In this document: piece after piece, positions 1 to 25,024 of the stretch
Numbering within the stretch: position 1 is the first letter of the stretch
How the letters are laid out: every line of letters starts with the position of its first letter
From: an uncultured Erysipelotrichaceae bacterium
GTDB taxonomy: Bacteria > Bacillota_I > Bacilli_A > Erysipelotrichales > Erysipelotrichaceae
Direction: 5' to 3'
DNA: 33,968 bases
Assembly: GCA_902778375.1 (NCBI GenBank)
Contig: CACYXJ010000044.1
Span: 1 to 33,968, forward strand
Position numbers and translations under genes: made by a program
Notes under the pieces: model-generated
What the model saw: the letters and a program-made list of their open reading frames with translations, nothing else
Databases searched by the model: none
Told to the model about the DNA's origin: nothing

Positions 1-2
1 TC

Positions 3-149
3 ATTCCCAAACAGGCCCGGGACCTCTTTGATATCAAACCGGGTGATACCATTCTGCTGCTCGGCGATCCCAGCCGCGGCATTGCCATTCCTCCCAAGGG
101 AACATTTGATCATGTTTTCGATGCTGTATTCGCGGAGAAGAAGAAATGA
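3..149 (+). CDS. AbrB/SpoVT-like DNA-binding protein, C-terminal fragment
   Basis: The reading frame is open from the window edge to a TGA at 147-149, giving 48 residues; the start lies outside the window. The fragment contains IPKQARDLFDIKPGDTILLL followed by a short Gly/Pro-rich strand, which matches the end of an AbrB/SpoVT swapped-hairpin DNA-binding domain (typically R-x-x-[FL]-x-[IL]-x-x-G-D-x-[IL]). Such proteins are small dimeric transcription regulators. The stop overlaps the next start as ATGA, so it is probably co-transcribed and translationally coupled with the glycosyltransferase. Family assignment rests on about half a domain, so the gene cannot be named. Confidence 0.75.
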   Translation: MPKQARDLFDIKPGDTILLLGDPSRGIAIPPKGTFDHVFDAVFAEKKK

Positions 150-1534
150 AAAAGATCGCCATGTTCTGCATCCCGGCATACGGACATACCAATCCGATGC
201 TGCCGGTAGCGGCCGAACTTGTCCGCCGCGGTCATTCGGTACGCTTCTATTCATTCGATGAATTCGCTGAAAAGATCAGCAACACAGGGGCGCAGTTCAT
301 CAGCTGCGACCGGTTTCTTCCGGCCTTGAATGAAGAAGAGGAAAAGGGCATCAGGAACGTTTCGTCAACCGAGATGACGATCCAGGACCTGCGCATCACT
401 GCCGCCATGGACGCTTTTCTGAAAGAGGAACTGACGGCGTTTGAGCCGGACGTGATCTATACCGATTCCGTCTGCTTCTGGGGCAAGCTGAACGCCATGA
501 AGTATCAGATCCCGATGGTCGTTTCCACCAGCACATTTGCCTTTAACGCGCTTTCCTCCCGCTATATGAAGAATTCGCCGGCGGAAATCATGGACCTGGT
601 ATTCGGCCTTGGGAAAATCAACAAGGAGATGAAGAAACTGGAACCGTACGGCTATCATGTGAAAAACGTGCTGTCGCTGATCCAGAATGACAATGATACG
701 GATACCATTGTCTATACGACCAGACGTTTTCAGCCCTATGCCGAGAGTTTCTCGGATCATTATGAATTTGTCGGACCGTCCGTCTTCTCAGATGAAGAGC
801 CGGTAAAGGAGAAGGAACGTCCGCTTGTCTATATTTCCATGGGAACCGTCATCAACGACCGTCCTGACTTTTATCACAAGTGCATGGAAGCACTGAAGGA
901 CATGGACATCGATGTCATCATTTCCTGCGGCCGGGCGGTGGATATCGCAAGTCTGGGAACGATTCCGGCCAATGTCAGTGTCTTTCCCTATGTTGACCAG
1001 CTGGCAGTTCTTGCCAAGGCCGATGCCTTCATCAGCCACTGCGGCATGAATTCCGTTTCCGAAAGCCTCTATATGGCGACACCGCTGGTGCTGTATCCCC
1101 AGACCAATGAACAGAAGGCAGTGGCGAAACGCGCTGCCGAACTGGGAACCGGCATTCTGCTGGAAGACGATTCAGCGGAAGGAATCCGCACCGCGGTCAG
1201 AAAGATCCTGGCAGAACCGTCCTACCGGAAAGCGGCAGAGGAAGCATGTGAAGACTTCCGGCAGCGGGACAGCAGGAAAGCGGCGGCGGATTTCATCGAA
1301 CAGGCACCGCATCAGGGAAACGGCCGCGATCTTCCTGCTGAACTGCAGAAAACAATGGGACTTTATCAGCTTCTTTACTGGCTGACCGTCATCGCCCTGA
1401 TCCTTGTTCTGTGGCTGGTGTGCCATATTCCTTATGCCTGGATCCTCGGCCTGCTTGCAAACTTTGTCTGGCCGCCGCTTGGCCGGAAACTGGAAGAAAA
1501 TGCCTGGAAGAAGCTGACAGAAAAGAAAGAATAA
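146..1534 (+). CDS. MGT/YjiC-like UDP-glycosyltransferase with C-terminal membrane anchor
   Basis: This 462-residue protein resembles macrolide-type (GT1, GT-B fold) glycosyltransferases, which move a sugar from a UDP-sugar to a small or lipid acceptor. The N-terminus (MKKIAMFCIPAYGHTNPMLP) is the usual first strand and loop with a catalytic-type His. The donor-site segment near residues 295-330 has SHCGMNSVSESL followed by P-L-V-L-Y-P-Q-T-N-E-Q, as in the family. The family is usually about 400 residues. Here an extra tail (about 405-462) holds one or two hydrophobic segments and a basic end, suggesting a membrane tether. It overlaps the upstream AbrB-like gene by ATGA. The acceptor cannot be told from sequence; a glycolipid or envelope substrate is an inference. 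Confidence 0.85.
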   Translation: MKKIAMFCIPAYGHTNPMLPVAAELVRRGHSVRFYSFDEFAEKISNTGAQFISCDRFLPALNEEEEKGIRNVSSTEMTIQDLRITAAMDAFLKEELTAFEPDVIYTDSVCFWGKLNAMKYQIPMVVSTSTFAFNALSSRYMKNSPAEIMDLVFGLGKINKEMKKLEPYGYHVKNVLSLIQNDNDTDTIVYTTRRFQPYAESFSDHYEFVGPSVFSDEEPVKEKERPLVYISMGTVINDRPDFYHKCMEALKDMDIDVIISCGRAVDIASLGTIPANVSVFPYVDQLAVLAKADAFISHCGMNSVSESLYMATPLVLYPQTNEQKAVAKRAAELGTGILLEDDSAEGIRTAVRKILAEPSYRKAAEEACEDFRQRDSRKAAADFIEQAPHQGNGRDLPAELQKTMGLYQLLYWLTVIALILVLWLVCHIPYAWILGLLANFVWPPLGRKLEENAWKKLTEKKE

Positions 1535-1586
1535 ACAAGTTTTGAAAGAAACTGTAGGAAGTGCAACAGTTTACGGTTTTATGCGT

Positions 1587-1592
1587 TATAAT
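1587..1592 (+). promoter_or_regulatory. Promoter -10 of the membrane-protein gene
   Basis: A perfect TATAAT lies 40 bases before the ATG at 1633. No good -35 is found at 16-18 bases upstream, so activity would depend on the -10 and possibly an activator. An AGAGG SD follows near 1620. Confidence 0.5.
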
Positions 1593-1632
1593 AGTGAATG
1601 ATAAAAACCTGTAAGGTTTAGAGGTAAGAGTT

Positions 1633-2427
1633 ATGGAATACATTGACCGTAAGGATACACATCTGAAGTTTCACCGTCTGATGCAGTTTCTCGGCTGGCC
1701 GCTGCTGATCATTGCCAACGGTGCTATGATTGCGACTTGCATCAGCAGCATCTTCAAGTTCGCGCTGCCGTGGCCGATCGATTTCCTCACCCAGACACAG
1801 CAGTTCGTGACAACTCTTTCCAAGGGCAGTATCACACCGCTTCTGACATCAGTGATCCTGATCATCCTTGCCCTGATATTCCTGGTACTGGAATTCTATA
1901 CATGGATGGGTTCTTTCAAGTGGCGCAAATACAGCTACCGCAGCTGGCTGATCACTCTGTTCTTTACTTTCCTGGTCGCTGCCGCACTGGCAGTGGGTGC
2001 TGAATTCTTCCTTATCCGCGGCGACAATCTGGGTCTCATTCTCGGTGCCCAGGTTACTTCCGCAGTCCTGAAGGCAAGGATCATCCTCGGTCTGCGCATC
2101 ATGCTGATCATGGCGCTGCTGATCGTGGCATTCTTCATTTATCTGAATGTCCTGTACTATTTCAAGCGCAGAAAGCTCTACCGCTCCGAAGACTGGTATG
2201 AAGAAGATGAGAATGTGCCGGAATACGGCAAACCGGAAGTCACTTCCTCCATCCAGCCGCTGCCGGAAACACCGAAGCCCGCTGCACCGGCATCTTCCCA
2301 GCCGGAACTTGTCATGCCGGAATCCAAGCCGCAGACTCCGCCGGAAGAAATCAAGCTTGAAATGCCGGATCCGGTCGTTCCCGACCGTTCCGCACCGGCC
2401 AACTTCATCGAAGCCGACAAAGAGTAA
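1633..2427 (+). CDS. Four-TM membrane protein with Pro/Glu-rich cytoplasmic tail (unknown function)
   Basis: I do not recognise this 264-residue protein. It has four clear hydrophobic segments (about residues 20-43, 68-90, 104-127 and 152-176). A short basic stretch (FKRRK) follows the last one, then a tail of about 85 residues rich in Pro, Glu and Ser (PEV, PETPKP and MPES-type repeats). The positive-inside rule places the tail in the cytoplasm. The tail looks disordered and could be a docking region. It has its own promoter and terminator, so it is probably monocistronic. No catalytic motif is visible. Confidence 0.75.
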   Translation: MEYIDRKDTHLKFHRLMQFLGWPLLIIANGAMIATCISSIFKFALPWPIDFLTQTQQFVTTLSKGSITPLLTSVILIILALIFLVLEFYTWMGSFKWRKYSYRSWLITLFFTFLVAAALAVGAEFFLIRGDNLGLILGAQVTSAVLKARIILGLRIMLIMALLIVAFFIYLNVLYYFKRRKLYRSEDWYEEDENVPEYGKPEVTSSIQPLPETPKPAAPASSQPELVMPESKPQTPPEEIKLEMPDPVVPDRSAPANFIEADKE

Positions 2428-2452
2428 TCTGTTATACAGTCTTAAAATATGG

Positions 2453-2482
2453 ACCGCAGACTCTGGCAGCCTGCGGTTTTTT
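2453..2482 (+). terminator. Intrinsic terminator after the membrane-protein gene
   Basis: ACCGCAG pairs with CTGCGGT across an 11-base loop and is followed by six T. It lies between two convergent genes. Confidence 0.85.
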
Positions 2483-2509
2483 ATATGTGCCGGAAAAGAA
2501 AAACCCGGA

Positions 2510-3025
2510 TCATTCTTCCGGGTCGGATTCCGCCTTGTTTTCAAAATAGCGTTCGAGATACATCTTGTGGGCAATGGTGATGATGACGTTGCGGGCCATC
2601 TGTTCCAGTTCCGTTCCGGTCTTCAGTTCAACACTGAGCTGGGGACCGTTGAAGGAGGAAAGGACATCCTGGAGAAGGGCACGGAAACGGTCATAGACCT
2701 CTTCGGTACTGGTGCCGGTGCGGTTGACGTCATCGATCAGTACCCGTACATGATCGATCGATATGACTGTCTTGGTCAGGGCGATCATCAGCAGCATCGC
2801 GATCTGGTCACGGGTATAGCGCTTCTTGTTGACGCGGTCGATCAGTTTCTGCTTGGCGTAGTTGGAAATCATCGAAGGCGTCACGCTCATCTCCGGGAAT
2901 TCATCCAGGAAGGAATTCATATATTTGGCTACCTGGTCGAGATAAAGACCGACATCGGGAATCTCGTGATAGGCAGGAAGCCGGAAGCCCTGCAGGGCTT
3001 CATGGATCTGACTGTTTTCGTTCAT
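2510..3025 (-). CDS. DUF1836 family protein, putative transcription regulator
   Basis: The 171-residue product has the DUF1836 layout: an N-terminal motif F-R-L-P-x-Y-x-E-I-P-D-V-G-L-Y-L-D-Q, a helical centre with MISNYAKQKLI (MerR/HTH-like, 'Y-x-K-x-x-L-I'), and R-Y-T-R-D-Q-I-A. The family is predicted to bind DNA but is poorly studied. The start is uncertain. The frame is open to an ATG at 3070 (AAGGG six bases upstream), but codons 3026-3070 encode a Tyr-rich stretch that is really a near-consensus promoter. I chose the ATG at 3025 because family N-termini look like MNENSQ and the promoter would begin transcription almost exactly there. It is divergent from the hemolysin III gene, with direct repeats between them. 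Confidence 0.82.
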   Translation of the reverse strand: MNENSQIHEALQGFRLPAYHEIPDVGLYLDQVAKYMNSFLDEFPEMSVTPSMISNYAKQKLIDRVNKKRYTRDQIAMLLMIALTKTVISIDHVRVLIDDVNRTGTSTEEVYDRFRALLQDVLSSFNGPQLSVELKTGTELEQMARNVIITIAHKMYLERYFENKAESDPEE

Positions 3026-3031
3026 GCCTCC

Positions 3032-3060
3032 ATTATAGTAGGGATAATAATAAGCGTCAA
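3032..3060 (-). promoter_or_regulatory. Promoter for the DUF1836 gene (possibly leaderless)
   Basis: On the minus strand TTGACG (3060-3055), a 17-base spacer and TATAAT (3037-3032) form a near-perfect promoter. The expected +1 is about 3025, the A of an ATG. A GGAGG lies only one base before that ATG, too close to act as a normal SD. Confidence 0.75.
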
Positions 3061-3079
3061 ACGTATACATCAACAACCC

Positions 3080-3108
3080 TTGACAGGTTATTGAAAAACC
3101 GATAGACT
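3080..3108 (+). promoter_or_regulatory. Promoter for the hemolysin III gene
   Basis: Consensus TTGACA (3080-3085), a 17-base spacer and TAGACT (3103-3108). The expected +1 is near 3115, which excludes the GTG at 3113 as start and supports the ATG at 3170. Confidence 0.75.
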
Positions 3109-3142
3109 TTAAGTGTCAAAGGTTTATGAAAAACCGATGAGA
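3086..3142 (+). repeat. Two direct repeats over the hemolysin III promoter (operator candidate)
   Basis: TGAAAAACCGAT occurs at 3092-3103 and again at 3127-3138, 35 bases apart. Each copy is preceded by GGTT plus two or three bases, so each is also a small GGTT...AACC inverted repeat. The first fills the -35/-10 spacer; the second lies just downstream of the expected transcription start. This is where a repressor would bind. Confidence 0.6.
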
Positions 3143-3169
3143 AGATTAAAGAAATCCGGAGGTGTATAT

Positions 3170-3877
3170 ATGACAGTAATCAAAAACACGAATACAGTCA
3201 GTGACATGCTGCGGACAGCCGGCGAATTCCGGCTCAAGGACCGCTGGAGCGCGATCACTCACCTGATCGGCTTTCTGGCATCGATCGTCGCCATGCCGCT
3301 GCTGATGCTGAGAGGATATCTCTGGCAGAACTCCACGGCAGCCATGGTGTCCTATATGATCTACATGCTGAGCATGATCCTGCTTTACGGGGCATCTGCT
3401 TCCTACCATTCCTTCAATATCAGCGAGAAGGCGAATCTGATCCTGAAGAAGATCGATCATCTTTCCATCTTCATTCTGATTGCCGGAACCTATACGCCGG
3501 TATGTGTGATCGCTCTTGCCGGCATGAAAGGCTGGATCCTTCTGGCGGCTGTCTGGAGCATTGCCGTCATCGGCATCGTCTTCAAGCTGTTCTTCGTGAC
3601 CTGCCCGAAATGGGTATCGTCCGTGATCTATACAGCGATGGGCTGGGTATGCATCTTCTGCCTGCCGCAGCTTCTGCAGTCGCTTTCCGCCGGTGCTTTC
3701 TTCTGGCTGCTGGCCGGCGGCATCATGTATTCCGTCGGTGCCGTGTTCTATGCAATCAAGCCGAAATGGCTGAGCCATCCCGGCTTCGGCAATCATGAAG
3801 TATTCCATTGCTTCGTACTGGCAGGAAGTCTCTGTCACTTCATCGTTGTCTGCGGTTTTCTGACAATGCTCGGCTGA
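3170..3877 (+). CDS. trhA: Hemolysin III / TrhA (PAQR-like) membrane protein
   Basis: This 235-residue polytopic membrane protein has the signatures of the hemolysin III/YqfA/TrhA branch of the PAQR superfamily: D-R-W-S-A-I-T-H-L-I-G in the first segment, SASYHSF, D-H-L-S-I-F-I-L-I-A-G-T-Y-T-P-V, and a C-terminal H-E-V-F-H-C-F. The conserved Ser/His/Asp/His residues form a metal site in PAQR hydrolases. About seven hydrophobic segments are visible. Bacterial members are linked to membrane energetics or lipid homeostasis; haemolysis is a heterologous phenotype. The start at 3170 is set by GGAGG seven bases upstream; a longer frame from GTG 3113 begins at or before the expected +1. Confidence 0.9.
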   Translation: MTVIKNTNTVSDMLRTAGEFRLKDRWSAITHLIGFLASIVAMPLLMLRGYLWQNSTAAMVSYMIYMLSMILLYGASASYHSFNISEKANLILKKIDHLSIFILIAGTYTPVCVIALAGMKGWILLAAVWSIAVIGIVFKLFFVTCPKWVSSVIYTAMGWVCIFCLPQLLQSLSAGAFFWLLAGGIMYSVGAVFYAIKPKWLSHPGFGNHEVFHCFVLAGSLCHFIVVCGFLTMLG

Positions 3878-3900
3878 GGACAGAAAAGAAATGCAAATGA

Positions 3901-3928
3901 AAAAACCGAAGATGATCTTCGGTTTTTT
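3901..3928. terminator. Bidirectional intrinsic terminator
   Basis: AAAAACCGAAGAT and its near-perfect inverted copy form a stem with A-run and T-run flanks, so it can end both the hemolysin III gene (+) and the peptide gene at 3962 (-). Confidence 0.85.
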
Positions 3929-3961
3929 ACTGTTTGTAACAGAGCGGACCGGTGTGCAGGT

Positions 3962-4204
3962 TTACCACTGAAAACCGCAGTCCTTGCAGCGGTAATGCTT
4001 GACCGTTGTCTTACGTGCCTCGACATATTCAGATCCGAGGAATTCGAGATTCTCCGATCCGCACATGTAACATCTGGCCGGTCTGTGTCTTTCGGCTGCG
4101 TGGCCGCCGCCGCTGCCTTCTTTGCCATCGCCTCCGGATACATTGTTGAGTTCGTCGAGTGTGACTTTGATGACTTTACGTTCTTTTTCTTTTTCCTCAG
4201 GCAT
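3962..4204 (-). CDS. Small peptide with double-glycine leader and C-terminal zinc ribbon
   Basis: The 80-residue product starts at an ATG with AAAGGAG eight bases upstream. Residues 1-25 are charged and end in V-T-L-D-E-L-N-N-V-S-G-G. This fits the leader consensus of class II bacteriocins and ComC/BlpC-type peptides, which C39-peptidase ABC exporters cut after the Gly-Gly. After a Gly/Lys-rich linker, the C-terminus has two CxxC pairs (C45/C48 and C73/C76, the second as C-K-D-C-G), typical of a zinc ribbon. No C39 exporter, immunity gene or modifying enzyme is in the window. It could be an exported metal-binding peptide, an orphan RiPP-like precursor, or a cytoplasmic zinc-ribbon protein whose leader likeness is chance. 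The frame continues upstream to 4315 but has no SD there. Confidence 0.75.
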   Translation of the reverse strand: MPEEKEKERKVIKVTLDELNNVSGGDGKEGSGGGHAAERHRPARCYMCGSENLEFLGSEYVEARKTTVKHYRCKDCGFQW

Positions 4205-4280
4205 TATTCGTTCTCCTTTCAACCACAGGCGCTGCTGTTTCTCTAAAAAGGCAAAGCATGTTTTTTCAGACTGCATTTCT

Positions 4281-4310
4281 ATTATCAATATCATATATTT
4301 CTCACGTAAA
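4281..4310 (-). promoter_or_regulatory. Promoter of the double-glycine peptide gene
   Basis: On the minus strand TTTACG (4310-4305), an 18-base spacer and GATAAT (4286-4281). This gives a 5' UTR of roughly 70 bases. The match is moderate. Confidence 0.5.
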
Positions 4311-4375
4311 CACAATCCTTTTACATGAACTTCCGGATTTGCATTGATAATAAAATAATTGAACTTTTTCAGCGC

Positions 4376-4404
4376 TTGAGAAACTGATTTCAGAGCACTA
4401 ATAT
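4376..4404 (+). promoter_or_regulatory. Promoter of the coiled-coil protein gene
   Basis: TTGAGA (4376-4381), a 17-base spacer and TAATAT (4399-4404). The -10 covers the upstream in-frame ATG at 4403, so translation must begin later, at 4454. The stretch 4205-4453 otherwise holds only divergent promoter sequence. Confidence 0.65.
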
Positions 4405-4453
4405 GGATTGGGGTTATTCATATGACCCGACAGAATATCAAAGGAGAAAGAAA

Positions 4454-5185
4454 ATGAATTTTGAAGAGAGAGTAGCAAAGCAGCAGGCCAAGCTGGCTGA
4501 ACTCAAGGCCAGACTGAATGAATCAATGGATGTTGCCAGGGAAGCTTATCAGTACAACAAGAACGAGAGAGAAGAAAAGCTGAACGAGATCAACGCCAAG
4601 GTTGAAGACTTCAACAAGGAAGTTGAAAGAAAGGTCACAAACAGCATCGCAGATGCCAAGTCCGATGCCAGAGTCACAGCTCAGCTGGTCAAGGATGACA
4701 TTGCTGATATGGAAGACAGAATCGATGACAAGATCGAAGCAAAGGCTGACAAGATCGGCGAAACATTCGACAAGATCGATGCCAGAGCTGAAGCCAACCG
4801 TTTCGAAAGAGAAGCAATCCATGACGAAGCAGTCGAAATGCTGCAGGCCAGAGCTGATGACCAGCGGGCAACAGTCGAAGGCAACGTCAATGCCGTTGAA
4901 GAAAACTTCCGTCTTGCCAAGGAACGTTATAACAGCAAACTGAACAGCTCCCGTCTCAAGGTTCAGATGCACCAGGAAGAACTGAAGAGAAGAATCGACA
5001 ACACAAAGACAGAACTGGACATGGCTGCTGAAGAACAGCTGATCAATGATCTGCTTGATTATGCCGATGACTGCGAACTGATGGCCTATGCCTATGCAGT
5101 GGAAGCTGAAATGGCTGTTCTCGATGCCTGCGACGTTCTTACCGACTACACGGAAAAACTGAACAAGCTGATTGAAAACAACTGA
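4454..5185 (+). CDS. Highly charged, all-helical coiled-coil protein (unknown function)
   Basis: The start is the ATG after AAAGGAG (about seven bases). The 243-residue product has no signal peptide, no Gly/Pro-rich loops and almost no aromatic residues in its centre. Nearly the whole chain is a Lys/Glu/Asp/Ala pattern that reads as long amphipathic helices (for example R-I-D-D-K-I-E-A-K-A-D-K-I), like phasin-type or apolipoprotein-like helical bundles. The last 45 residues are different: acidic, Ala/Tyr-rich and amphipathic (ELMAYAYAVEAEMAVLDACD). A structural or organelle/membrane-surface role is possible but unproven. It has its own promoter and a strong terminator, so it is monocistronic. 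Confidence 0.8.
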   Translation: MNFEERVAKQQAKLAELKARLNESMDVAREAYQYNKNEREEKLNEINAKVEDFNKEVERKVTNSIADAKSDARVTAQLVKDDIADMEDRIDDKIEAKADKIGETFDKIDARAEANRFEREAIHDEAVEMLQARADDQRATVEGNVNAVEENFRLAKERYNSKLNSSRLKVQMHQEELKRRIDNTKTELDMAAEEQLINDLLDYADDCELMAYAYAVEAEMAVLDACDVLTDYTEKLNKLIENN

Positions 5186-5218
5186 TCATAATAAGTATCA
5201 GAACTGTTTATGATAAAT

Positions 5219-5250
5219 ACACCGGTCTGTAAAAGGACCGGTGTGTTTTT
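5219..5250 (+). terminator. Intrinsic terminator after the coiled-coil gene
   Basis: ACACCGGTC pairs with GACCGGTGT over an eight-base loop, followed by GTTTTT. Confidence 0.9.
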
Positions 5251-5313
5251 ATCCGGTATCATGTTTCTATTGTCATCGGGAAAGAAGTGATACAATGCAC
5301 AGGGGAGAAATCT

Positions 5314-6030
5314 ATGAGAGGACTGGGTACACTGATCAACATGGCGGCAATTATCGCCGGCGGACTGCTGGGACTGTTCTTCGGCAGTTTCCTGAAAGAA
5401 AGATACCGTGATTCCCTGATCAAGGCCAACGGTGCCGCGGTGCTGTTTGTCGGCATCTCCGGCACATTGCAGAAAATGATCAGGATCAACGGCGGAGTTG
5501 TCGAAATGGAAGGGGCGATGATGATGGTCGCATCCCTGGCTGCCGGTGTCGTGATCGGTGAATTCATCAATATCGAAGACCGGCTGGAACAGTTCGGTGA
5601 ATGGCTCAAGCAGAAATCCGGAAGTTCCTCCGATGCCGAATTCGTCAACGGCTTCGTTACTGCTTCCCTGACAGTCTGCATCGGTGCCATGGCGATCGTC
5701 GGTGCCATCCAGGACGGCATGACCGGCGACTATACGACCCTGGCTGTCAAGGCGATCCTCGACTTTCTGATCATCATGGTCATGACTGCCTCGATGGGCA
5801 AAGGCTGTATCTTCTCCGCCATTCCCGTCGGCATCCTGCAGGGCGGTGTCACATTGCTGGCCATCGCGTTTTCCTCCGGCATGCCGCAGAGTGCCGTTGA
5901 TGCCCTGTCGCTGGTCGGCAATGTGCTGATCTTCTGTGTCGGCGTCAATCTGATCTGGCCGAAGACCTTCCGGGTGGCGAACATGCTGCCGGCGGTAGTG
6001 ATCGCGGTCATCTGGTCATTCTTTGTGTAA
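5314..6030 (+). CDS. DUF554 family membrane protein
   Basis: This 238-residue, very hydrophobic protein matches the DUF554 (YdfK-like) family. The N-terminal GLGTLINMAAIIAGGLLGL is followed by a short K-E-R-Y loop, a segment with F-V-N-G-F-V-T-A-S-L-T-V-C-I-G-A-M-A-I-V-G-A-I-Q-D-G near the middle, and a hydrophobic C-terminus ending V-V-I-A-V-I-W-S-F-F-V. About seven membrane segments are likely. The substrate is unknown for the family. The start at 5314 has GGGGAG five bases before it; the in-frame GTG at 5287 has no SD. A TACAAT at 5291-5296 may be its -10. The next gene follows through a hairpin that could terminate this transcript. Confidence 0.85.
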   Translation: MRGLGTLINMAAIIAGGLLGLFFGSFLKERYRDSLIKANGAAVLFVGISGTLQKMIRINGGVVEMEGAMMMVASLAAGVVIGEFINIEDRLEQFGEWLKQKSGSSSDAEFVNGFVTASLTVCIGAMAIVGAIQDGMTGDYTTLAVKAILDFLIIMVMTASMGKGCIFSAIPVGILQGGVTLLAIAFSSGMPQSAVDALSLVGNVLIFCVGVNLIWPKTFRVANMLPAVVIAVIWSFFV

Positions 6031-6058
6031 AGTACATGACCGTGTACAGGAATAACGG

Positions 6059-6093
6059 CCTCCCATGTCTATATTCATGACAGGGAGGTTTTT
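6059..6093 (+). terminator. Terminator-like hairpin that also holds the SD of the next gene
   Basis: C6059-C6069 (one bulged A) pairs with G6079-G6088, ten base pairs, and is followed by five T. The descending arm contains GGGAGG, the only SD for the ATG at 6096. The element can act as terminator, as translational lock, or as both. Confidence 0.7.
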
Positions 6094-6095
6094 AT

Positions 6096-6347
6096 ATGGA
6101 TAAAACAACGATCGTCCGCCAGGCTCTCAGGACCTATGTCAGAAGCCAACTGCAGCATCCCGGCAACACGCTTTCGCCGCAGCAGTGGCTGACACTGCTC
6201 AACTGTTACATCCGCCGTCAGGATGCGGAGGAATGCGCGGATCTTGCCGGCATCAGACCGCTGGAGGCTGAGATGTGGTATACCCGTTTTGCCATGGCGG
6301 TGATTTCCTATGCTGTCCGTCTGACCCGCATCAAATATGCCGCCTGA
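6096..6347 (+). CDS. Small hypothetical helical protein
   Basis: I do not recognise this 83-residue protein. It is Arg-rich, without signal peptide or cysteine pair motif, and predicted from pattern to be mostly helical (V-R-Q-A-L-R-T-Y-V-R, then L-S-P-Q-Q-W-L-T-L-L-N-C-Y-I-R-R). The middle (A-E-E-C-A-D-L-A-G-I-R-P-L-E-A-E) resembles a compact helix-turn-helix but this is weak. SD GGGAGG is seven bases before the ATG and codon use resembles the neighbours, so I think it is real. It may be expressed by read-through from the DUF554 gene, controlled by the SD hairpin. Confidence 0.55.
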   Translation: MDKTTIVRQALRTYVRSQLQHPGNTLSPQQWLTLLNCYIRRQDAEECADLAGIRPLEAEMWYTRFAMAVISYAVRLTRIKYAA

Positions 6348-6350
6348 CAG

Positions 6351-6379
6351 TTTCAAAATCTTACCAACAGTGGCATAAT
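6351..6379 (+). promoter_or_regulatory. Weak promoter before the nucleoside phosphorylase gene
   Basis: TTTCAA (6351-6356), a 17-base spacer and CATAAT (6374-6379), directly after the preceding stop. Moderate match only. Confidence 0.4.
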
Positions 6380-6417
6380 TTCCTTAGAAGATTAATGATC
6401 AGACTAAAGGAGAAATC

Positions 6418-7746
6418 ATGCGGTTTGTAGATATGATCGAGCGGAAAGCCGACGGCTTTTCCCTGTCAAAAGAAGAAATCAATGAAATGGTATCCGGCTA
6501 TGTCAACGGAACCATTCCCGATTATCAGATGAGTGCCATGTGCATGGCCATCCTGCAGAAAGGCATGACCGATCAGGAAACGGCAGATCTGACCATGGCG
6601 ATGATGCACAGCGGCGAAATCGTCGATCTTTCGTCATTGCCGGGCATCAAGGTCGACAAGCACAGCACCGGCGGCGTCGGCGATACGACGACACTTGTTG
6701 TTGCTCCGCTGGTAGCAGCCTGCGGCGGCACGGTAGCGAAGATGAGCGGCAGGGGACTTGGCCATACCGGCGGTACCCTGGACAAGCTGGAATCCATTCC
6801 CGGCACAAAGGTCGAGATCCCGATGAAGGAATTTATATCAATCGTCAGGGAGAACGGCTGTGCTGTCATCGGCCAGAGCGCCAACATCGTGCCGGCCGAC
6901 AAGAAGATCTACGCTCTGCGCGATGTCACCGCGACCGTGCGGTCCATTCCGCTGATCGCATCTTCGATCATGTCCAAGAAGCTGGCCAGCGGTTCTGATG
7001 CCATTGTCCTGGATGTCAAGACCGGCAGCGGCGCCTTCATGCGCACTTATGACGAAGCGGAAAAACTGGCGGAACTCATGGTATCCATCGGCAAGCTGAC
7101 CGGACGCAGGGTTCATGCCCTGATCACCGATATGAACCAGCCGCTCGGCATGGCAGTCGGCAATGTCCTGGAAGTACAGGAAGCGGTCGAACTGCTCAGC
7201 GGCATGATCAGCGAAGACGATCCGCTTTACCGGGTATGCATGCTGCTGGGAAGCCACATGCTGATGCTCGGCGGCATTGCTTCAACAAAGGAAGAAGCGG
7301 AGAGCAGACTCAGACAGGCAGTCTGCGACGGCTCGGGACTGCGCGTACTCAGGAACATGTTCAGACTGCAGCACGGAGCAAGCGAATATATCGATCCGGT
7401 AAAGATCAGGGAACTGATCCGGGTCAGAAGGACAGTCGATGTAACCGCCGAAAAGGACGGCTATGTTACGGCCATGAATGCCGAAAAGATCGGTACTGCC
7501 GCCCAGATGCTGGGTGCCGGCAGAGCGAAGAAGGACGATGATATCGATCCCTGTGTCGGACTGGTCATGAAGGTCAGATGCGGAGACTATGTACATGCCG
7601 GTGATCCGTTGTGCCGGATGTATATCGACAGCGAGAAGAATTCCGTAGACAGTATCCGTACCTTCAAGGAAGCAATCTCGATCAGCGATGAGAAGAAACC
7701 GATCACGCCGATGGTCTACCGCACCATTACCGAAGATGATGTCTGA
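6418..7746 (+). CDS. pdp: Pyrimidine-nucleoside phosphorylase
   Basis: This 442-residue enzyme cleaves uridine, deoxyuridine and thymidine with phosphate to the base and (deoxy)ribose-1-phosphate in cytoplasmic pyrimidine salvage. The N-terminal helical domain starts M-R-F-V-D-M-I-E-R-K-A-D-G. The phosphate-binding loop is K-V-D-K-H-S-T-G-G-V-G-D (about residues 78-89). The family signature S-G-R-G-L-G-H-T-G-G-T-L-D-K-L-E follows near 110-125, and the SIMSKKLASG motif near 185. A C-terminal beta domain of biotinyl-like fold ends the chain. The length equals Bacillus Pdp. The distinction from thymidine phosphorylase (deoA) cannot be made with certainty by eye. SD AAAGGAG precedes the ATG. The ComB-like gene follows at 26 bases and probably shares the transcript. 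Confidence 0.93.
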   Translation: MRFVDMIERKADGFSLSKEEINEMVSGYVNGTIPDYQMSAMCMAILQKGMTDQETADLTMAMMHSGEIVDLSSLPGIKVDKHSTGGVGDTTTLVVAPLVAACGGTVAKMSGRGLGHTGGTLDKLESIPGTKVEIPMKEFISIVRENGCAVIGQSANIVPADKKIYALRDVTATVRSIPLIASSIMSKKLASGSDAIVLDVKTGSGAFMRTYDEAEKLAELMVSIGKLTGRRVHALITDMNQPLGMAVGNVLEVQEAVELLSGMISEDDPLYRVCMLLGSHMLMLGGIASTKEEAESRLRQAVCDGSGLRVLRNMFRLQHGASEYIDPVKIRELIRVRRTVDVTAEKDGYVTAMNAEKIGTAAQMLGAGRAKKDDDIDPCVGLVMKVRCGDYVHAGDPLCRMYIDSEKNSVDSIRTFKEAISISDEKKPITPMVYRTITEDDV

Positions 7747-7772
7747 TCATCCAGACAGAAAGGAAACAGGAT

Positions 7773-8465
7773 ATGGAAATTGAGATCCTGCATCTTCTGG
7801 AAGGCGCAAAGCAGGCGAAAGGTCTGACGGTCGTCATCGATGTTTTCCGGGCATTCAGCTGTGAATGCTACATGTATGAAGCCGGAGCTGACAAGGTCAT
7901 CGCTGTCGGCACCCTGGAGAAGACATTCGAACTGAAAGAGCAGCATCCTGACTGGATCCTGGCAGGGGAAAGAAACGGCATCATGGTCGAAGGCTTCGAC
8001 TACGGCAATTCCCCGGCCGGTTTCGAACATGCCCCGCTTGCCGGCAAGACAGTCGTCCATACGACCAGTGCCGGTGTGCAGGGACTGGCGGCTGTTACAT
8101 GTGCTGATGAGATCCTGACCGGAGCTCTGGTCAATGCCGCTGCGATTGCCCGTTATATCAAAAAGAAAAACCCGGAACATGTATCCCTGGTGGCAATGGG
8201 GTGGAACGGTGTCAAACAAACCGAAGAGGATGAACTGTGCGCCGAATACATCGCGTCACTGCTGAAAGAGGAACCGCTAAGGGATATTGAAGACAGAGCA
8301 CTGCAGCTGCGGTATCAGGAAGGAAAGAAGTTCTTCGATTTCAAGCAGAAGGATGTCTTTCCCGAGCGTGACTTCTGGCTCTCGATCAGGCATGATGTCT
8401 TCGATCATGTGATCAGGGTCATACCGGAAGACGGAATGTACGAAACCGAATGGATCAAGGCATGA
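7773..8465 (+). CDS. comB: 2-phosphosulfolactate phosphatase (ComB) family protein
   Basis: The 230-residue product has the ComB pattern: V-V-I-D-V-F-R-A-F-S near residue 20, A-G-E-R-N-G near 65, D-Y-G-N-S-P and V-V-H-T-T-S-A-G-V-Q-G in the middle, and E-D-E-L-C-A-E-Y-I near 152. ComB is a Mg-dependent phosphatase that dephosphorylates 2-phosphosulfolactate in coenzyme M synthesis. Many bacteria without coenzyme M have homologues whose true substrate is unknown, and I infer that applies here. It follows the phosphorylase gene with SD AAAGGAAA and ends at a terminator, so the pair is likely an operon. The ComB name here is for the family and is unrelated to competence. Confidence 0.88.
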   Translation: MEIEILHLLEGAKQAKGLTVVIDVFRAFSCECYMYEAGADKVIAVGTLEKTFELKEQHPDWILAGERNGIMVEGFDYGNSPAGFEHAPLAGKTVVHTTSAGVQGLAAVTCADEILTGALVNAAAIARYIKKKNPEHVSLVAMGWNGVKQTEEDELCAEYIASLLKEEPLRDIEDRALQLRYQEGKKFFDFKQKDVFPERDFWLSIRHDVFDHVIRVIPEDGMYETEWIKA

Positions 8466-8466
8466 A

Positions 8467-8495
8467 AAAACAGATCAGAAGATCTGTTTTCTTTC
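8467..8495. terminator. Bidirectional intrinsic terminator
   Basis: AAAACAGATC / GATCTGTTTT with a four-base loop and T-rich flanks on both strands. It separates the comB-like gene (+) and the acidic-protein gene (-), whose stop is at 8498. Confidence 0.85.
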
Positions 8496-8497
8496 TG

Positions 8498-9424
8498 TTA
8501 TTCGTTGTTGACCAGCTTGTCTTCGGCAATTGCCGTGAAGGCGATGGTCGGCAGTTCGTGGTCTTCCTGATCGTTGGGATCATAGAGGGCGGAGCGTTCT
8601 TTCAGGCTCTGCAGCAGTTCGCCGATCGGTTCGTCTTCTTCATCCAGCGGTACGTCACCGAGATTCATCTGCATGGTGTTCTCGATGTCTTCCATCGTCT
8701 GGTCGAATTCCTCCAGCTGCGGCTGGTAGTCAAGGAAGTCAGTGGAATCCGGTACTGCCGGCATCACCGGTTCTTCGGTTTCTTCCGGTTCAGCGATGAC
8801 TTCCGGTTCATCGATGACCTCCGGTTCATCGAACGGGAAGGGTTCTTCAGTTTCTTCCGGTTCTTCGAACAGGATCGGTTCGTCGACTTCGTCCGGATCG
8901 ATATTCTGGATATCGGTGAACGGCTTGTCTTCCAGTGCTCTTGCGGCTTCTTCCTGTTCCTGGGAATAAATACGGCCGCCGATCACATCTTCCTTCTGTT
9001 CGATTTCCCTTGCGGCTTCATCGACCTCGGAGAGGATGATGCTGTCCATATAGCTGTCGAGATCGAAATCGTCGATGACCGGTTCTTCTTCAGCAGGCAG
9101 CCATTCTGCTTCACTCTGTTTCCTGATCTGATAGGCAGGAAATCTGGCAACGGAAACATCGCCGTCATCTTCGAAGAAGTAGACATGACGTACAGCATTG
9201 CCGCTGCTGTCTCTTTCTTCACTCAGGAAGCGGCATTCGCGTTCGCTGCCGTCTTCGCTTCTGTATAAGGCTTCTTCACCGACAAACACGACATCCGGAT
9301 CGTCGGAAGCAAGCCAGGCACGCCAGTCGACAAATTCGCTGGCCCGTTTTGATACGATGGATCTGATGAATGCTTCCAGCTGGCGGCTGGAGCAGTTCCG
9401 CAGTCTTTCATAGTTACTGGACAT
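8498..9424 (-). CDS. Acidic repeat-containing protein (unknown function)
   Basis: This 308-residue protein starts at an ATG with GGGAGG nine bases upstream. Residues 1-105 look folded (W-R-A-W-L, V-Y-F-F-E-D-D-G-D-V, R-F-P-A-Y-Q-I). From about residue 110 on it is extremely acidic. The region about 190-245 has tandem short repeats of the type E-P-E-V-I-D / E-E-P-E-E-T-E-E-P, and the tail (D-E-E-D-E-P-I-G-E-L-L) is acidic and helical. No membrane segment or signal peptide is visible. I cannot name a family. It is transcribed away from rplS and ends at a shared terminator. The repeats are low-complexity and could expand or shrink between strains. Confidence 0.75.
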   Translation of the reverse strand: MSSNYERLRNCSSRQLEAFIRSIVSKRASEFVDWRAWLASDDPDVVFVGEEALYRSEDGSERECRFLSEERDSSGNAVRHVYFFEDDGDVSVARFPAYQIRKQSEAEWLPAEEEPVIDDFDLDSYMDSIILSEVDEAAREIEQKEDVIGGRIYSQEQEEAARALEDKPFTDIQNIDPDEVDEPILFEEPEETEEPFPFDEPEVIDEPEVIAEPEETEEPVMPAVPDSTDFLDYQPQLEEFDQTMEDIENTMQMNLGDVPLDEEDEPIGELLQSLKERSALYDPNDQEDHELPTIAFTAIAEDKLVNNE

Positions 9425-9507
9425 GTTAAAAACCTCCCGTATACCTTATATACACCTGTTATTATTACATAACCAGGCCTTTAAAGCGAATTGTTTTCGG
9501 TTTTTTA

Positions 9508-9536
9508 TTGTCTGTGCTGTTTTTTTATGGTATTAT
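9508..9536 (+). promoter_or_regulatory. rplS promoter
   Basis: TTGTCT (9508-9513), a 17-base spacer and TATTAT (9531-9536). Transcription would begin near 9543, leaving a leader of about 75 bases. Confidence 0.7.
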
Positions 9537-9540
9537 CTAC

Positions 9541-9617
9541 GAGCGCGATTGCGCATCACTGTTCCGCTGACGGTAACGTGAATGAACAGCTGATCATTCG
9601 GTAAAAGGAGACATAAG
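9541..9617 (+). promoter_or_regulatory. Structured rplS leader (candidate L19 leader)
   Basis: The leader can form GCGC-GATT-GCGC (9543-9554), then CTGTTC (9559-9564) pairing with GAACAG (9584-9589), ahead of the SD AAAGGAG. Bacillota often carry an autoregulatory L19 leader here. I see hairpins of suitable position and size but cannot confirm the family consensus. The rest of 9425-9530 holds an inverted repeat at 9455-9477 (CCTGTTAT / ATAACCAGG, one bulge) upstream of the divergent acidic-protein gene, and nothing else clear. Confidence 0.45.
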
Positions 9618-9971
9618 ATGAATTTAAGTTTAGTCGACAAGATCACAAAGGAACAGTTACGCAGTGACATTCCGGAATTCAAGGTCGGTGACACCCTCAA
9701 GGTTCACGTCCGTATCCGTGAAGGCAACAAGTCCCGTATCCAGGTATTCGAAGGTGTCTGTGTAGACCGTTCGAACGGCGGCATCGGCGCTTCCTTCACA
9801 GTCCGCAAGATGTCCAGCGGTATCGGCGTCCAGAGAACATTCCCGGTACATTCTCCGGTCATTGACAAGATCGAAGTAGTACGTCACGGTAAAGTCCGCA
9901 GAGCAAAGCTGACTTATCTGAAGGGTCTGTCCGCGAAGAACGCACGTATCAAGGAAGACCGCAGAAAGTAA
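9618..9971 (+). CDS. rplS: 50S ribosomal protein L19
   Basis: The 117-residue protein matches bacterial L19 throughout: the basic N-terminal helix, then [41 protein letters not shown] and [11 protein letters not shown]19 sits at the 30S-50S interface. Length and ends are as expected. SD AAAAGGAG is nine bases before the ATG. It has its own promoter and terminator and so is monocistronic, placed just upstream of the lepB-rbgA cluster as in many Bacillota. Confidence 0.98.
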
Positions 9972-9981
9972 GTTTCCGAAA

Positions 9982-10010
9982 AGAGGAAGGGTATGCTTCC
10001 TCTTTTTCTT
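9982..10010 (+). terminator. rplS terminator
   Basis: AGAGGAAG / CTTCCTCT with a six-base loop followed by TTTTCTTT. It overlaps the likely -35 region of the lepB promoter. Confidence 0.88.
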
Positions 10011-10015
10011 TGCGG

Positions 10016-10024
10016 TGGTATAAT
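10016..10024 (+). promoter_or_regulatory. Extended -10 promoter of lepB-rbgA-rnhB
   Basis: TGGTATAAT is a perfect extended -10 (TGnTATAAT) with no recognisable -35. The upstream side is the U-tail of the rplS terminator. Confidence 0.6.
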
Positions 10025-10050
10025 GGTTCACAGATTCGGAAAGGAACGCG

Positions 10051-10806
10051 ATGAACAGATACGAAGACAGATCCGCTTCGGAAGAGACGGAAGATCTTGG
10101 TTTTCTCAGCACCCAGGTGTATGAAACACTGACCTCGGGGAAAGAGGAACCGAAGGCGCCGATGTCAGAGACACAGGTTCTTGAGACGATGACACGCCGC
10201 GGCGAAGAAGCCAAAGAAGCTCCGAAAGAAGCGGAAGAAACCGAAGAGGAAGAAGAAACAAGCTGGACCGAAACCGCAGCCGGTGAAGTGCTGCTCTTTT
10301 TCCGTGATCTCGGCATCTGCATGGCGCTGGTCCTGATCATGATCAATTTCGTGATCCGTCCCATCCAGGTCAGGGGAAGTTCGATGTATCCGACCCTGCA
10401 GAACGGCAGTCTCGGCGTTTCCAATCTGCTTGGCTACAATCTCGACGGTATCAAGCGTTTCGATATCGTGATCGTATATCTGGAAGACAAGAAGGAATAT
10501 CTCGTCAAGCGGGTCGTCGGCCTGCCCAACGAGACCGTCGCCTATATCGGCGGCAAGCTGTATGTCAACGGCGAGATGATGGAGGAAGACTTCCTCGATC
10601 AGAACTACCGCGATTCCTATGAAGGAAGCTTCATGGAGGATGTCGCTCCGGTGACGCTCGGCAGCGACGAATACTTCTGTCTGGGAGACAACCGTCCCCA
10701 TTCCACCGATTCCCGTTACTACGGACCGTTTGCCGGCGATAAGATCCTGTCCAAGGGCGTGTTTATCTTTTACCCGTTCTCGGCCGTCGGAGTGGAAACA
10801 TGGTAA
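10051..10806 (+). CDS. lepB: Signal peptidase I with long acidic N-terminal tail
   Basis: Type I signal peptidase removes signal peptides from exported proteins at the outer face of the membrane. This 251-residue protein has the Ser-Lys dyad: S111 in G-S-S-M-Y-P-T-L and K153 in E-Y-L-V-K-R-V-V-G-L-P-N-E. It also has box E G-D-N-R-P-H-S-T-D-S-R-Y-Y-G-P. A single membrane segment (about 82-102) precedes the catalytic domain. Unusually, a cytoplasmic tail of about 80 acidic residues comes first, with a duplicated T-Q-V-x-E-T-x-T motif at residues 21-28 and 41-48. SD AAAGGAA precedes the ATG. The stop overlaps rbgA by seven bases. Confidence 0.94.
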   Translation: MNRYEDRSASEETEDLGFLSTQVYETLTSGKEEPKAPMSETQVLETMTRRGEEAKEAPKEAEETEEEEETSWTETAAGEVLLFFRDLGICMALVLIMINFVIRPIQVRGSSMYPTLQNGSLGVSNLLGYNLDGIKRFDIVIVYLEDKKEYLVKRVVGLPNETVAYIGGKLYVNGEMMEEDFLDQNYRDSYEGSFMEDVAPVTLGSDEYFCLGDNRPHSTDSRYYGPFAGDKILSKGVFIFYPFSAVGVETW

Positions 10807-11681
10807 AGATCCAGTGGTATCCCGGGCATATGGAAAAAGCCCGGCGGGAGATGACAGAACGGCTCAAGGCGGTCGATCTTGTCATCGAACTGCGCGATGC
10901 CAGAATTCCCGAAGCTTCCCGCAACCCTTTATTAAATATGATGGCGAAGGACAAGCCGCGGCTGATCCTTCTGACCAAGACCGATATGGCTGATCCGGCT
11001 GTGACCGAACAGTGGGTCAGATATCTCAAACAGCAGGAAAACACATCCTGCATCGCCCTCGACCTGATGCGCGACAATCACTGCGGCCGCAAGATCATCA
11101 GGGAAGCGCTGCAGATGATGCAGGAAAAGAGAAACAAACAGATTGCCAGAGGCATCCGTCCCCGGGCTGTCCGGGCAATGGCGGCCGGCATTCCCAATGT
11201 CGGCAAATCGACGATGATCAACCGCGTTGCCGGCAAGAACAGCCTCAAGGCAGCCGACAAGCCGGGCGTGACAAGAAGCCTGACATGGCTTCATGCCGAC
11301 AAGGATCTCGACCTGCTCGATACCCCGGGCGTGCTGTGGCCGAAGTTTGACGACGAAAAGACCGGTACGCTGCTGGCGGCAGTGGGATCGGTCAATGACG
11401 ATATCCTCGACCGCAAGATGCTGGCAATGGATACGGTCCGCATGATCCAGGAACTGTATCCCGGACTGCTGGAGGAAATCTATGAAGCTGAAGAAGGCGT
11501 CAATCCCAACGGCATGCTGAAGGCGATCGCCGCCAGGCGCAACCTGGTAAGGGAGAACGGCGAAGCCGACACAAAAAGGGCGGCCGAACTGTTTCTGACC
11601 GAACTGCGCCACGGCAAACTGGGAAGGATCACACTGGAGAGGCCTGATGAAGAAGAAAGCGGCGAAGACCTGCACGAATGA
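10800..11681 (+). CDS. rbgA: Ribosome biogenesis GTPase YlqF/RbgA
   Basis: This 293-residue circularly permuted GTPase acts late in 50S assembly. The N-terminus I-Q-W-Y-P-G-H-M-x-K-A is diagnostic. Motifs appear in permuted order: G4 T-K-T-D near residue 60, then G1 G-I-P-N-V-G-K-S-T near 136, then G3 D-T-P-G near 177. A helical C-terminal domain of about 100 residues follows. Length is normal. It overlaps lepB by seven bases and rnhB by 35, so the three form a tightly coupled operon. No good SD is needed if translation is coupled. Confidence 0.96.
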   Translation: MVKIQWYPGHMEKARREMTERLKAVDLVIELRDARIPEASRNPLLNMMAKDKPRLILLTKTDMADPAVTEQWVRYLKQQENTSCIALDLMRDNHCGRKIIREALQMMQEKRNKQIARGIRPRAVRAMAAGIPNVGKSTMINRVAGKNSLKAADKPGVTRSLTWLHADKDLDLLDTPGVLWPKFDDEKTGTLLAAVGSVNDDILDRKMLAMDTVRMIQELYPGLLEEIYEAEEGVNPNGMLKAIAARRNLVRENGEADTKRAAELFLTELRHGKLGRITLERPDEEESGEDLHE

Positions 11682-12294
11682 ATTCGAGAATATATACTGG
11701 CCGAAAGGAATGTCAGTGCTTGGCATCGATGAAGCCGGAAGGGGACCGCTTGCCGGTCCTTTGACTGTTGCCGGCGTCATCTTTCCCATCGGCTATGAAA
11801 ATCCCGCCATCTACGACTCCAAGACACTGAGCGAAAAGAAGCGGGAGGAACTGTTTGAGATTATCAGGGAAGATGCGGAGTGGTTCGAGATCCTGATCGT
11901 TTCCGAAAAGGAGATCGATACCTATGACATCTACCATGCCGATCAGATGGCAATGGCCCGCATCGCCGAAGAGGCACCGGCCGAGGTCGTCATTACCGAC
12001 GCCATGCCGGTGGAACTGGAAGATCAGAACAAAACCGTCCATCATCCCGTCAAGGGCGACCAGAAATCGATCAATGTCGCCGCCGCTTCGATCCTTGCCA
12101 AGGTGACAAGGGACCGGATGATGAAGGAATATGACAAGCTGTATCCCGGCTACGGTTTCGCCGCCAACAAAGGCTACGGAACCAGACAGCATATGGAGGC
12201 CATACAGAAACTGGGCATCACGCCGATCCACCGCCGCTCGTTCGCGCCGGTGCGGGCCCAGCAGCAGATACTCGATCTTTTCGGGGAATCATAA
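11647..12294 (+). CDS. rnhB: Ribonuclease HII
   Basis: RNase HII cleaves RNA in RNA-DNA hybrids and at single ribonucleotides in DNA. The 215-residue protein has G-I-D-E-A-G-R-G-P-L-A-G-P with catalytic D28 and E29, D118 in V-I-T-D-A-M, and D138 in K-G-D-Q-K-S. The S-I-N-V-A-A-A-S-I-L-A-K-V-T-R-D block and a C-terminal H-R-R-S-F follow. I kept the first ATG (GAGAGG just upstream, inside rbgA). An ATG at codon 22 would give a shorter N-terminus but its purine-rich SD is too close. Confidence 0.96.
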   Translation: MKKKAAKTCTNEFENIYWPKGMSVLGIDEAGRGPLAGPLTVAGVIFPIGYENPAIYDSKTLSEKKREELFEIIREDAEWFEILIVSEKEIDTYDIYHADQMAMARIAEEAPAEVVITDAMPVELEDQNKTVHHPVKGDQKSINVAAASILAKVTRDRMMKEYDKLYPGYGFAANKGYGTRQHMEAIQKLGITPIHRRSFAPVRAQQQILDLFGES

Positions 12295-24038: not shown

Positions 24039-24137
24039 AACAGGCAGAAAAGGTTTAAAATAGAAGAGATCAGCATCTCCGGGATGACCCGGAAGGCTGA
24101 AGAAGCAACATTTATATGGCTGTCTGTCCGGCTGCTG

Positions 24138-24143
24138 TATAAT
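24138..24143 (+). promoter_or_regulatory. -10 element before the pRiA4b ORF-3-like gene
   Basis: A perfect TATAAT. It spans the in-frame ATG at 24142, so that ATG cannot be the start. No clear -35 is seen. The stretch 24039-24137 has no clear terminator, only CCGGG-ATGA-CCCGG without a T run. Confidence 0.5.
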
Positions 24144-24162
24144 GGAGCTCAGGAGGAAGATC

Positions 24163-24780
24163 ATGGAATACAGAAAATACCGCGTAAGCCTGCAGGTTTA
24201 TCCCGACCGGCTCTATCGTACCTTTTATATCCGCACCGATGTGACGCTGGATAAACTGGCTGAAGTCATTCTGAAACTGTTCCGTACGGACGAAACCCCT
24301 GCCTATGTGTTCTTCGATACGGAGCACAGTTATACGACAGACATGTTCGTGCACATGAACCCAAAGGGTGATTATCTGGATGCCCTGACCAACAATCCCG
24401 ATCTGAATGATGTCTGGGAAAACAAAAAACCGATGAATGCCTGCCGGCTGTCCGATATGGGGGACGAGTTCTGTTTTCTGTATGACGTGGATGAAGGCTA
24501 CAGATTTGTCTGCGAGGCATGCGGTGAACCCGTTGATGAAGACCGCGAAGATTATGTTTACGTAACAGAAGGCAAAGGGGCGGGCATCTTCGAAGATGAC
24601 GTGTACACACTGTGGTCCTATTTTGACGGCGGCGCCGATCCTGACATGAGCGAGGACGACGATGAAAAGGAATTCTACATGCCGGAGAATCTGGAACTGG
24701 AAAAACTCGGCGACTTCGAGAAACCGCTGGACCTTGAGGAAGAAACAGAGATTGCCGCAAGTGCTTTCGAAGAGGAATAA
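24163..24780 (+). CDS. pRiA4b ORF-3-like family protein
   Basis: The 205-residue product starts at the ATG after AGGAGG (six bases). Residues 1-125 resemble the plasmid pRiA4b ORF-3 domain: Y-R-V-S-L-Q ... I-R-T-D-V-T-L-D-K-L-A-E-V-I-L-K-L-F near the start and a later F-C-F-L-Y-D-V-D-E-G-Y-R-F (the family usually has Y-x-Y-D-F-G-D). A Cys pair (C-E-A-C near 125) and an acidic tail (E-D-D-D-E-K-E, then E-E-E) follow. The family is widespread next to mobile genes but its function is unknown; no mobile element is seen here. It is cytoplasmic and likely monocistronic. Confidence 0.72.
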   Translation: MEYRKYRVSLQVYPDRLYRTFYIRTDVTLDKLAEVILKLFRTDETPAYVFFDTEHSYTTDMFVHMNPKGDYLDALTNNPDLNDVWENKKPMNACRLSDMGDEFCFLYDVDEGYRFVCEACGEPVDEDREDYVYVTEGKGAGIFEDDVYTLWSYFDGGADPDMSEDDDEKEFYMPENLELEKLGDFEKPLDLEEETEIAASAFEEE

Positions 24781-24821
24781 AATCCGGCTGTAAAAATGCA
24801 GCTGCTGTCAAGTATTTTATC

Positions 24822-24851
24822 TTTACAGGAGATGACAGGGAGTGCTATAAT
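24822..24851 (+). promoter_or_regulatory. rpsB-tsf promoter
   Basis: TTTACA (24822-24827), an 18-base spacer and TATAAT (24846-24851), with TGC before the -10 (extended -10). A very strong promoter, as expected for ribosomal protein genes. Confidence 0.8.
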
Positions 24852-24857
24852 CCTTCT

Positions 24858-25024
24858 TGGCATCTCTTTTTTATGCGCGTTTTTACGCGCGCGATGCCCA
24901 ATACTCACACGGCGGATTCATCATCCCGTGCACGTGGTTCTAATAGACACTTCAGGTGTCTATGCGCGTGTTGATGATGTTCGAAACCGTGGCGGAAAAC
25001 AACGGAAAGAGAGGTTATGAAAAA
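24858..25024 (+). promoter_or_regulatory. Structured rpsB leader RNA
   Basis: The mRNA begins with a long 5' UTR of about 165 bases. GGCAT (24859-24863) pairs with ATGCC (24894-24898) around GCGCGT (24875-24880) / ACGCGC (24885-24890). Further on, ATAGACAC (24943-24950) and GTGTCTAT (24956-24963) form a perfect eight-base hairpin. The SD AGAGAGG is ten bases before the ATG. S2 autoregulates rpsB-tsf in other bacteria through its leader; this one may do so too. The segment 24781-24821 contains no gene. Confidence 0.55.

Follow-up and report, generated by a model that had tools for sequence, protein, structure and literature searches.

Could a peptide that carries a zinc ribbon be exported behind a double-glycine leader, a route that RiPPs and class II bacteriocins are known to take? 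The question was raised by an open reading frame (ORF) of 80 residues in the window, the whole stretch of 33,968 nucleotides analysed here, which is contig C44 of a 2.4 Mb assembly (112 contigs, 92% complete). The ORF is located on the minus strand at positions 3962–4204 including the stop codon, is read from 4204 down to 3962, and translates into MPEEKEKERKVIKVTLDELNNVSGG followed by DGKEGSGGGHAAERHRPARCYMCGSENLEFLGSEYVEARKTTVKHYRCKDCGFQW and a stop, with the predicted cut after Gly25 between the two parts. A sequence-only reading of the window had described the gene, without its strand, as having a leader ending in L-D-E-L-N-N-V-S-G-G, four cysteines (C45, C48, C73 and C76) and histidines in the linker. 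In the translation the GG is found at residues 24–25, the cysteine positions are exact and the histidines are present. The leader covers residues 1–25 (4130–4204, minus strand), and the predicted mature peptide covers residues 26–80 (3965–4129, minus strand), where a Gly/His-rich linker is followed by the ribbon. The first predicted zinc knuckle is CYMCG (Cys45 and Cys48; 4058–4072, minus strand), which is invariant in A2 and A4, and the second, predicted from sequence comparison, is CKDCG (Cys73 and Cys76; 3974–3988, minus strand) followed by FQW. We put the probability that the product is an exported zinc-ribbon peptide at roughly 0.75, a figure that excludes its role.

An AGGAG Shine-Dalgarno sequence (4213–4217, minus strand) is located 8 nt 5′ of the ATG, and a weak promoter-like site, TTTACG-18-GATAAT (9/12; 4281–4310, minus strand), is present with no evidence of function. 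The stop codon lies about 30 bp short of a strong bidirectional intrinsic terminator (3900–3928) that is common to the window gene and a convergent haemolysin-III-family gene. As the sequence-only reading had noted, there is no transporter or modifying enzyme nearby: no C39 exporter was found on the window contig, and no modifying enzyme was found among the ORFs of bases 1–12,000 or in a Pfam scan of the flanking genes. The neighbours were rejected as partners, the haemolysin-III-family, DUF1836, DUF554 and coiled-coil proteins all being ordinary in the Pfam scan. A tblastn comparison of the seven neighbouring window proteins with the fetched loci returned no match for any of them, and thus no conserved context was seen for the window gene. 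The coiled-coil protein, encoded at 4454–5185 and divergent from the ribbon gene, is 243 residues long and has no Pfam match.

The core of the peptide is confidently predicted to be a zinc ribbon, in which a small beta hairpin bears the two CxxC knuckles. AlphaFold2 modelling of residues 26–80 together with 37 relatives resulted in a two-stranded hairpin with a mean pLDDT of 83; the pLDDT was about 95 from core residue 21 to the end at residue 55, and the linker was of low confidence. The structural neighbours of the model were the ribbons of NrdR, TFIIS and RPA12, an RNA polymerase I subunit, and the best match had a Z score of 4.6 over 40 residues at 2.1 Å, a modest value that is in line with the small size of the domain. 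The sequence profile matched ribbons of the RPB9/TFIIS class, such as 1qyp (E 5e-7). No curated Pfam zinc-ribbon family scored above its cut-off, and the best matches were sub-threshold.

Relatives of the window gene were found in its own genome. The best paralogue is full length and is encoded on contig C7 (E 8e-8). Profiles were chosen for the search because a regular-expression scan for GG leaders missed many true precursors and returned false ones. A profile of four paralogues recovered more GG-leader and ribbon ORFs in the own genome and in relatives and was followed by a profile of 27 sequences, bringing the small ORFs of this kind in the own genome to about a dozen, on C1, C7, C31, C50, C59, C89 and C90, with the C59 member being a profile match alone. 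A core-only profile was then built from the window core and 37 ribbon cores from other bacteria, with no leader included. At E ≤ 1 it gave 14 matches in the own genome: 11 were small ORFs, two were domains within large proteins and one was a spurious frame. All 11 small ORFs had a double-glycine-type leader, one of which reads NAG, and small ribbons and GG leaders thus go together in this genome. A chance fusion of a GG motif with CxxC pairs is ruled out by the paralogues and the core-only profile.

An orphan precursor with its exporter elsewhere had been one of the options in the sequence-only reading, which suggested a search of the genome for C39-peptidase ABC exporters and would have taken their absence as a refutation. 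Two exporters of this type (NHLM-type) are encoded on other contigs, at C4:1350 and C25:6473. The C4 pair scored above the curated cut-offs for TIGR03796 (924 vs 853 bits) and TIGR03797 (718 vs 709 bits) and has a HlyD-like gene, with a weak match to TIGR03794, on its 5′ side; the C25 pair matched the TIGR03796 and TIGR03797 models below cut-off. The genome also encodes the C-terminal part of a LanM on C1 at 24054–26888 (L121:54-2888; TIGR03897, 307.6 vs a cut-off of 304), followed by five precursor-like ORFs that have similar leaders, four of them with GG, and C-terminal cysteines. By sequence, this is a class II lanthipeptide array, and the two exporters therefore probably carry mixed cargo.

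The exporter and the ribbon precursors occurred together across the organism's family. Strong full-length matches to the 27-sequence profile were present in 25 of 272 family genomes, and the NHLM C39 exporter was found in 22 of these 25 carriers vs 35 of the 272 genomes overall. Within genus g1 the exporter was present in 13/15 carriers vs 18/70 genomes, and within genus g3 in 9/9 carriers vs 14/36 genomes. The three carriers without an exporter are assemblies that are 70–85% complete. Fisher tests gave p-values from 1e-20 to 2e-5, which overstate the case since related genomes are counted as independent; the within-genus tests and the second lineage, f8, give safer support for the link. Thirteen exporter-bearing family genomes had no strong ribbon matches, which shows that ribbons are not the exporter's only cargo.

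The leader and the core were also found to be exchanged between family members. A precursor in a sister genome (L028) carries the window leader, with 81% identity over 26 residues, before another ribbon, and one in a related genome (L024) carries a similar ribbon behind a different leader that ends in GS. The sequence-only reading had proposed looking for the same leader with a different core, which is what L028 provides, and had regarded homologues with the ribbon but no GG motif as an argument against a leader. The pattern L..EL..V followed by GG is conserved across otherwise diverged family sequences and fits the window peptide, with GS and GA as exceptions. These exceptions are compatible with a leader since the C39 domain LahT150 also accepts GA and GS in place of GG; this domain cleaves a wide variety of cores behind Nif11-type leaders, of which it requires no more than the last 13 residues (PMC6363468).

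In f8, a family of the same class, a near-constant Nif11-like leader, MKKELLKGLSEEQIAKVKACK...ELTEEQL.AVSGG, precedes ribbon cores in tandem arrays, and the profiles of the window family and f8 aligned at 98.6% probability. Ribbon carriers made up 22 of the 146 f8 genomes, with a full-length C39 ABC protein in 19 of the 22 vs 20 of all 146. Lachnospiraceae likewise have arrays in which hypervariable ribbon cores follow a constant Nif11-type leader. A direct protein search of the contigs of the named genomes with the window peptide gave no relative; the same scan with the Nif11-leader alignment as query gave 222, hosted by rumen 'Erysipelotrichaceae' and Bacilli MAGs, Lachnospiraceae MAGs and Pseudobutyrivibrio sp. 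UBA3626. When the fetched loci were searched with a profile of the leader alone, 260 unique cores came up, of which 241 had two CxxC motifs; the sample is biased in favour of ribbons, as the query used to fetch the loci carried one. The mean identity was 72% for the leaders, 32% for the cores and 25% for the cores without their cysteines, and the most profile matches in any one genome were 32. The Nif11 model TIGR03798 (N11P) matched eight of nine f8 relatives (best E 5e-5; 20.8 bits for the first member vs a cut-off of 32.3) and the own-genome paralogue P0004 (22.5 bits, same cut-off). No match was listed for the window peptide, which is therefore not placed in the Nif11 family.

Among the Nif11-leader ribbon cores (loci L109–L236), 238 of 239 had an extra Cys within five residues after the GG, a possible modification or attachment site. 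This Cys gives some ground for a different reading, that the peptides are exported by a PCAT and stay anchored in the envelope or matrix, as proposed for MAM of Faecalibacterium duncaniae. MAM is a GG-leader protein that is not an obvious RiPP, is exported by a PCAT and occurs in leaderless form in both supernatant and envelope (PMC12184118). It differs from the window peptide in its predicted three-helix core and adjacent exporter, and no zinc ribbon is described for it (PMC12184118). Since the window peptide and most relatives in its own family lack the extra Cys, we consider envelope anchoring unlikely, though the best placed of the alternatives.

The arrays of relatives also place the ribbon precursors close to export genes. 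In L109 (= L159), L141, L145 (= L188) and L190, ribbon precursors are located about 10 kb or less from genes for a radical SAM/SPASM protein, a HlyD-like protein, a PCAT and a second ABC protein, and the radical SAM and HlyD-like genes of L145 have one ribbon precursor between them. The PCAT of L109 scored 825 bits, slightly below the TIGR03796 cut-off. The sequence-only reading had suggested a new kind of exported metal-binding peptide, and this fits a family, with conserved GG leader and predicted ribbon, that tracks the exporter and adjoins exporter genes in relatives.

The same gene order suggests that the four cysteines could instead be substrates of a radical SAM/SPASM maturase, so that the ribbon-like pattern would be the precursor state of a thioether-bridged RiPP. 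The radical SAM gene sits between precursors and exporter in the f8 operons, a ribbon precursor in the own genome (L004 8100–8522) is directly followed by a radical SAM/SPASM gene (8545–9951), and the NHLM exporter is present in 15 of the 16 genomes that have this radical SAM subfamily. However, the subfamily was found in only 11 of the 25 ribbon-positive family genomes and was undetected in 11 that had both ribbon and exporter, so it is probably not needed for the ribbons. In three of four f8 loci the gene directly upstream of it encodes a short-core precursor without a ribbon (L109:4724-4936, L145:2044-2256 and L190:9640-9897), which is a better candidate. These precursors have the same Nif11 leader, cores such as CDNTKPKKKIIED and ACSNTSTKERPKFES, and the extra Cys after the GG, and are likely the true substrate of the adjoining enzyme. 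CPxCG knuckles and the predicted fold are moreover typical of zinc ribbons, and a thioether-bridged product appears a little less likely still than an envelope peptide. Similar short cores were also seen in L130, L139, L206 and L216.

The explanation that we prefer is a stand-alone 'orphan' double-glycine precursor with a core that would be a zinc ribbon of the TFIIS/NrdR type. The leader/core architecture, the family, the exporter link and the predicted fold rest on comparison, and from them we infer that the gene is expressed and that its 25-residue leader would be recognised by the C39 peptidase domain of an NHLM-type exporter, either that on C4 or the second pair on C25. The C39 domain would cut after Gly25, and the 55-residue cargo would cross the membrane unfolded. 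Outside the cell the four cysteines may bind one Zn2+, giving a stable hairpin of small size whose exposed surface is variable. The peptide would be exported unmodified with no need for a dedicated modifying enzyme, and one constant leader and one exporter could serve a library of hypervariable ribbon cores. Against this explanation, the exporter is not adjacent to the window gene, the window leader is short and not Nif11-like, and a ribbon able to fold in the cytosol would have to be prevented from doing so before export.

Since the leader is constant and the cores are hypervariable, interference or communication between bacteria is the most likely function. Among the possible roles a bacteriocin-like one would come first, at slightly less than an even chance, with signalling, envelope attachment and metal capture behind it. 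No immunity gene was recognised beside the window gene or the f8 arrays, and the latter disfavours a classical bacteriocin. A peptide for metal capture or zinc buffering, similar to a zincophore, would explain the four cysteines, the histidines in the linker and the fact that the cores have the metal site in common and little else. On the other hand, the array cores are hypervariable whereas a scavenger needs its site alone, and an unsystematic look around the arrays revealed no uptake system, which makes such a role improbable. Least probable is a cytosolic zinc-ribbon regulator, binding RNA polymerase or nucleic acid like TFIIS or NrdR and with a GG-like N-terminus that is not a leader: the nearest structural neighbours and the lack of an adjacent exporter would suit it, but GG and L..EL..V are conserved across diverged sequences, one leader is found on different cores, and the exporter is tracked in two separate lineages.

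The exported zinc-ribbon peptide shares features with several known systems. TFIIS, RPB9 and NrdR have the predicted fold and the CPxCG knuckles, but these ribbons are domains that reside in the cytosol or nucleus and carry no export leader. Class II (unmodified) bacteriocins have a short LxxELxxVxGG leader and a core without recognised modification; they differ in that no immunity gene is recognised beside the window gene and f8 arrays. No class II bacteriocin core is known to be a zinc ribbon. Closest in export are the NHLP/N11P precursors (TIGR03793/TIGR03798) with NHLM export (TIGR03794, TIGR03796, TIGR03797), in which a Gly-Gly leader, paralogous expansion and diverse cores also occur and the same ABC export system is tracked (Haft, Basu, Mitchell 2010, PMC2887384). 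The f8 and Lachnospiraceae relatives have a Nif11-type leader as in N11P, in contrast to the short leader of the window member. The NHLP/N11P cores described are heterocyclised or lanthionine-bridged, whereas the ribbon family has a predicted pre-formed zinc ribbon and seems not to need a universal maturase. The one-enzyme-many-cores logic of Nif11-leader peptides is comparable to one leader and exporter with many ribbon cores. In the LahT/LahA system of Lachnospiraceae C6A11, one C39 exporter likewise serves many precursors with a conserved Nif11-type leader and diverse cores, but zinc is never mentioned and no zinc-ribbon core is described (PMC6363468).

No prior description of zinc-ribbon cores behind double-glycine leaders was found in Pfam, NCBIfam or the open-access literature, and the family is large and apparently not previously described. 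Genome annotation probably overlooks it, since most of the ORFs are shorter than 100 residues and no curated family scores above cut-off. We tentatively suggest, at rather less than even odds, an undescribed class of exported peptides in which hypervariable miniproteins are folded by zinc, gain their rigidity from metal and not from enzymatic crosslinks, share one leader and an NHLM exporter, and act as interbacterial effectors. By analogy with their fold relatives, such effectors might possibly target nucleic acids or RNA polymerase. If the cores of this widespread family are indeed ready-made zinc ribbons, bacteria in the rumen and similar habitats vary the peptides they export on a scaffold folded by metal, and a single exporter handles dozens of variants.

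Some further genes were seen in and around the clusters. Inside a Lachnospiraceae array of ribbon precursors, L222:8627-9958 encodes a secreted lipoprotein with papain-like residues and a Lectin_like domain; it was rejected as a common partner, having no counterpart in the other loci. In the own genome, five paralogues (C1:42839, C7:8100, C47:1748, C1:83210 and one on C11, L122:7654-8076) consist of a longer leader, a module with the conserved pattern C.ATVE.GS.C....D..C and a ribbon, and a relative at L004:5540-5971 has the module without a ribbon. An M1-type metallopeptidase lipoprotein is encoded at L004:10070-11638, with the radical SAM gene on one side and the C7 cluster of GG-ribbon peptides on the other.
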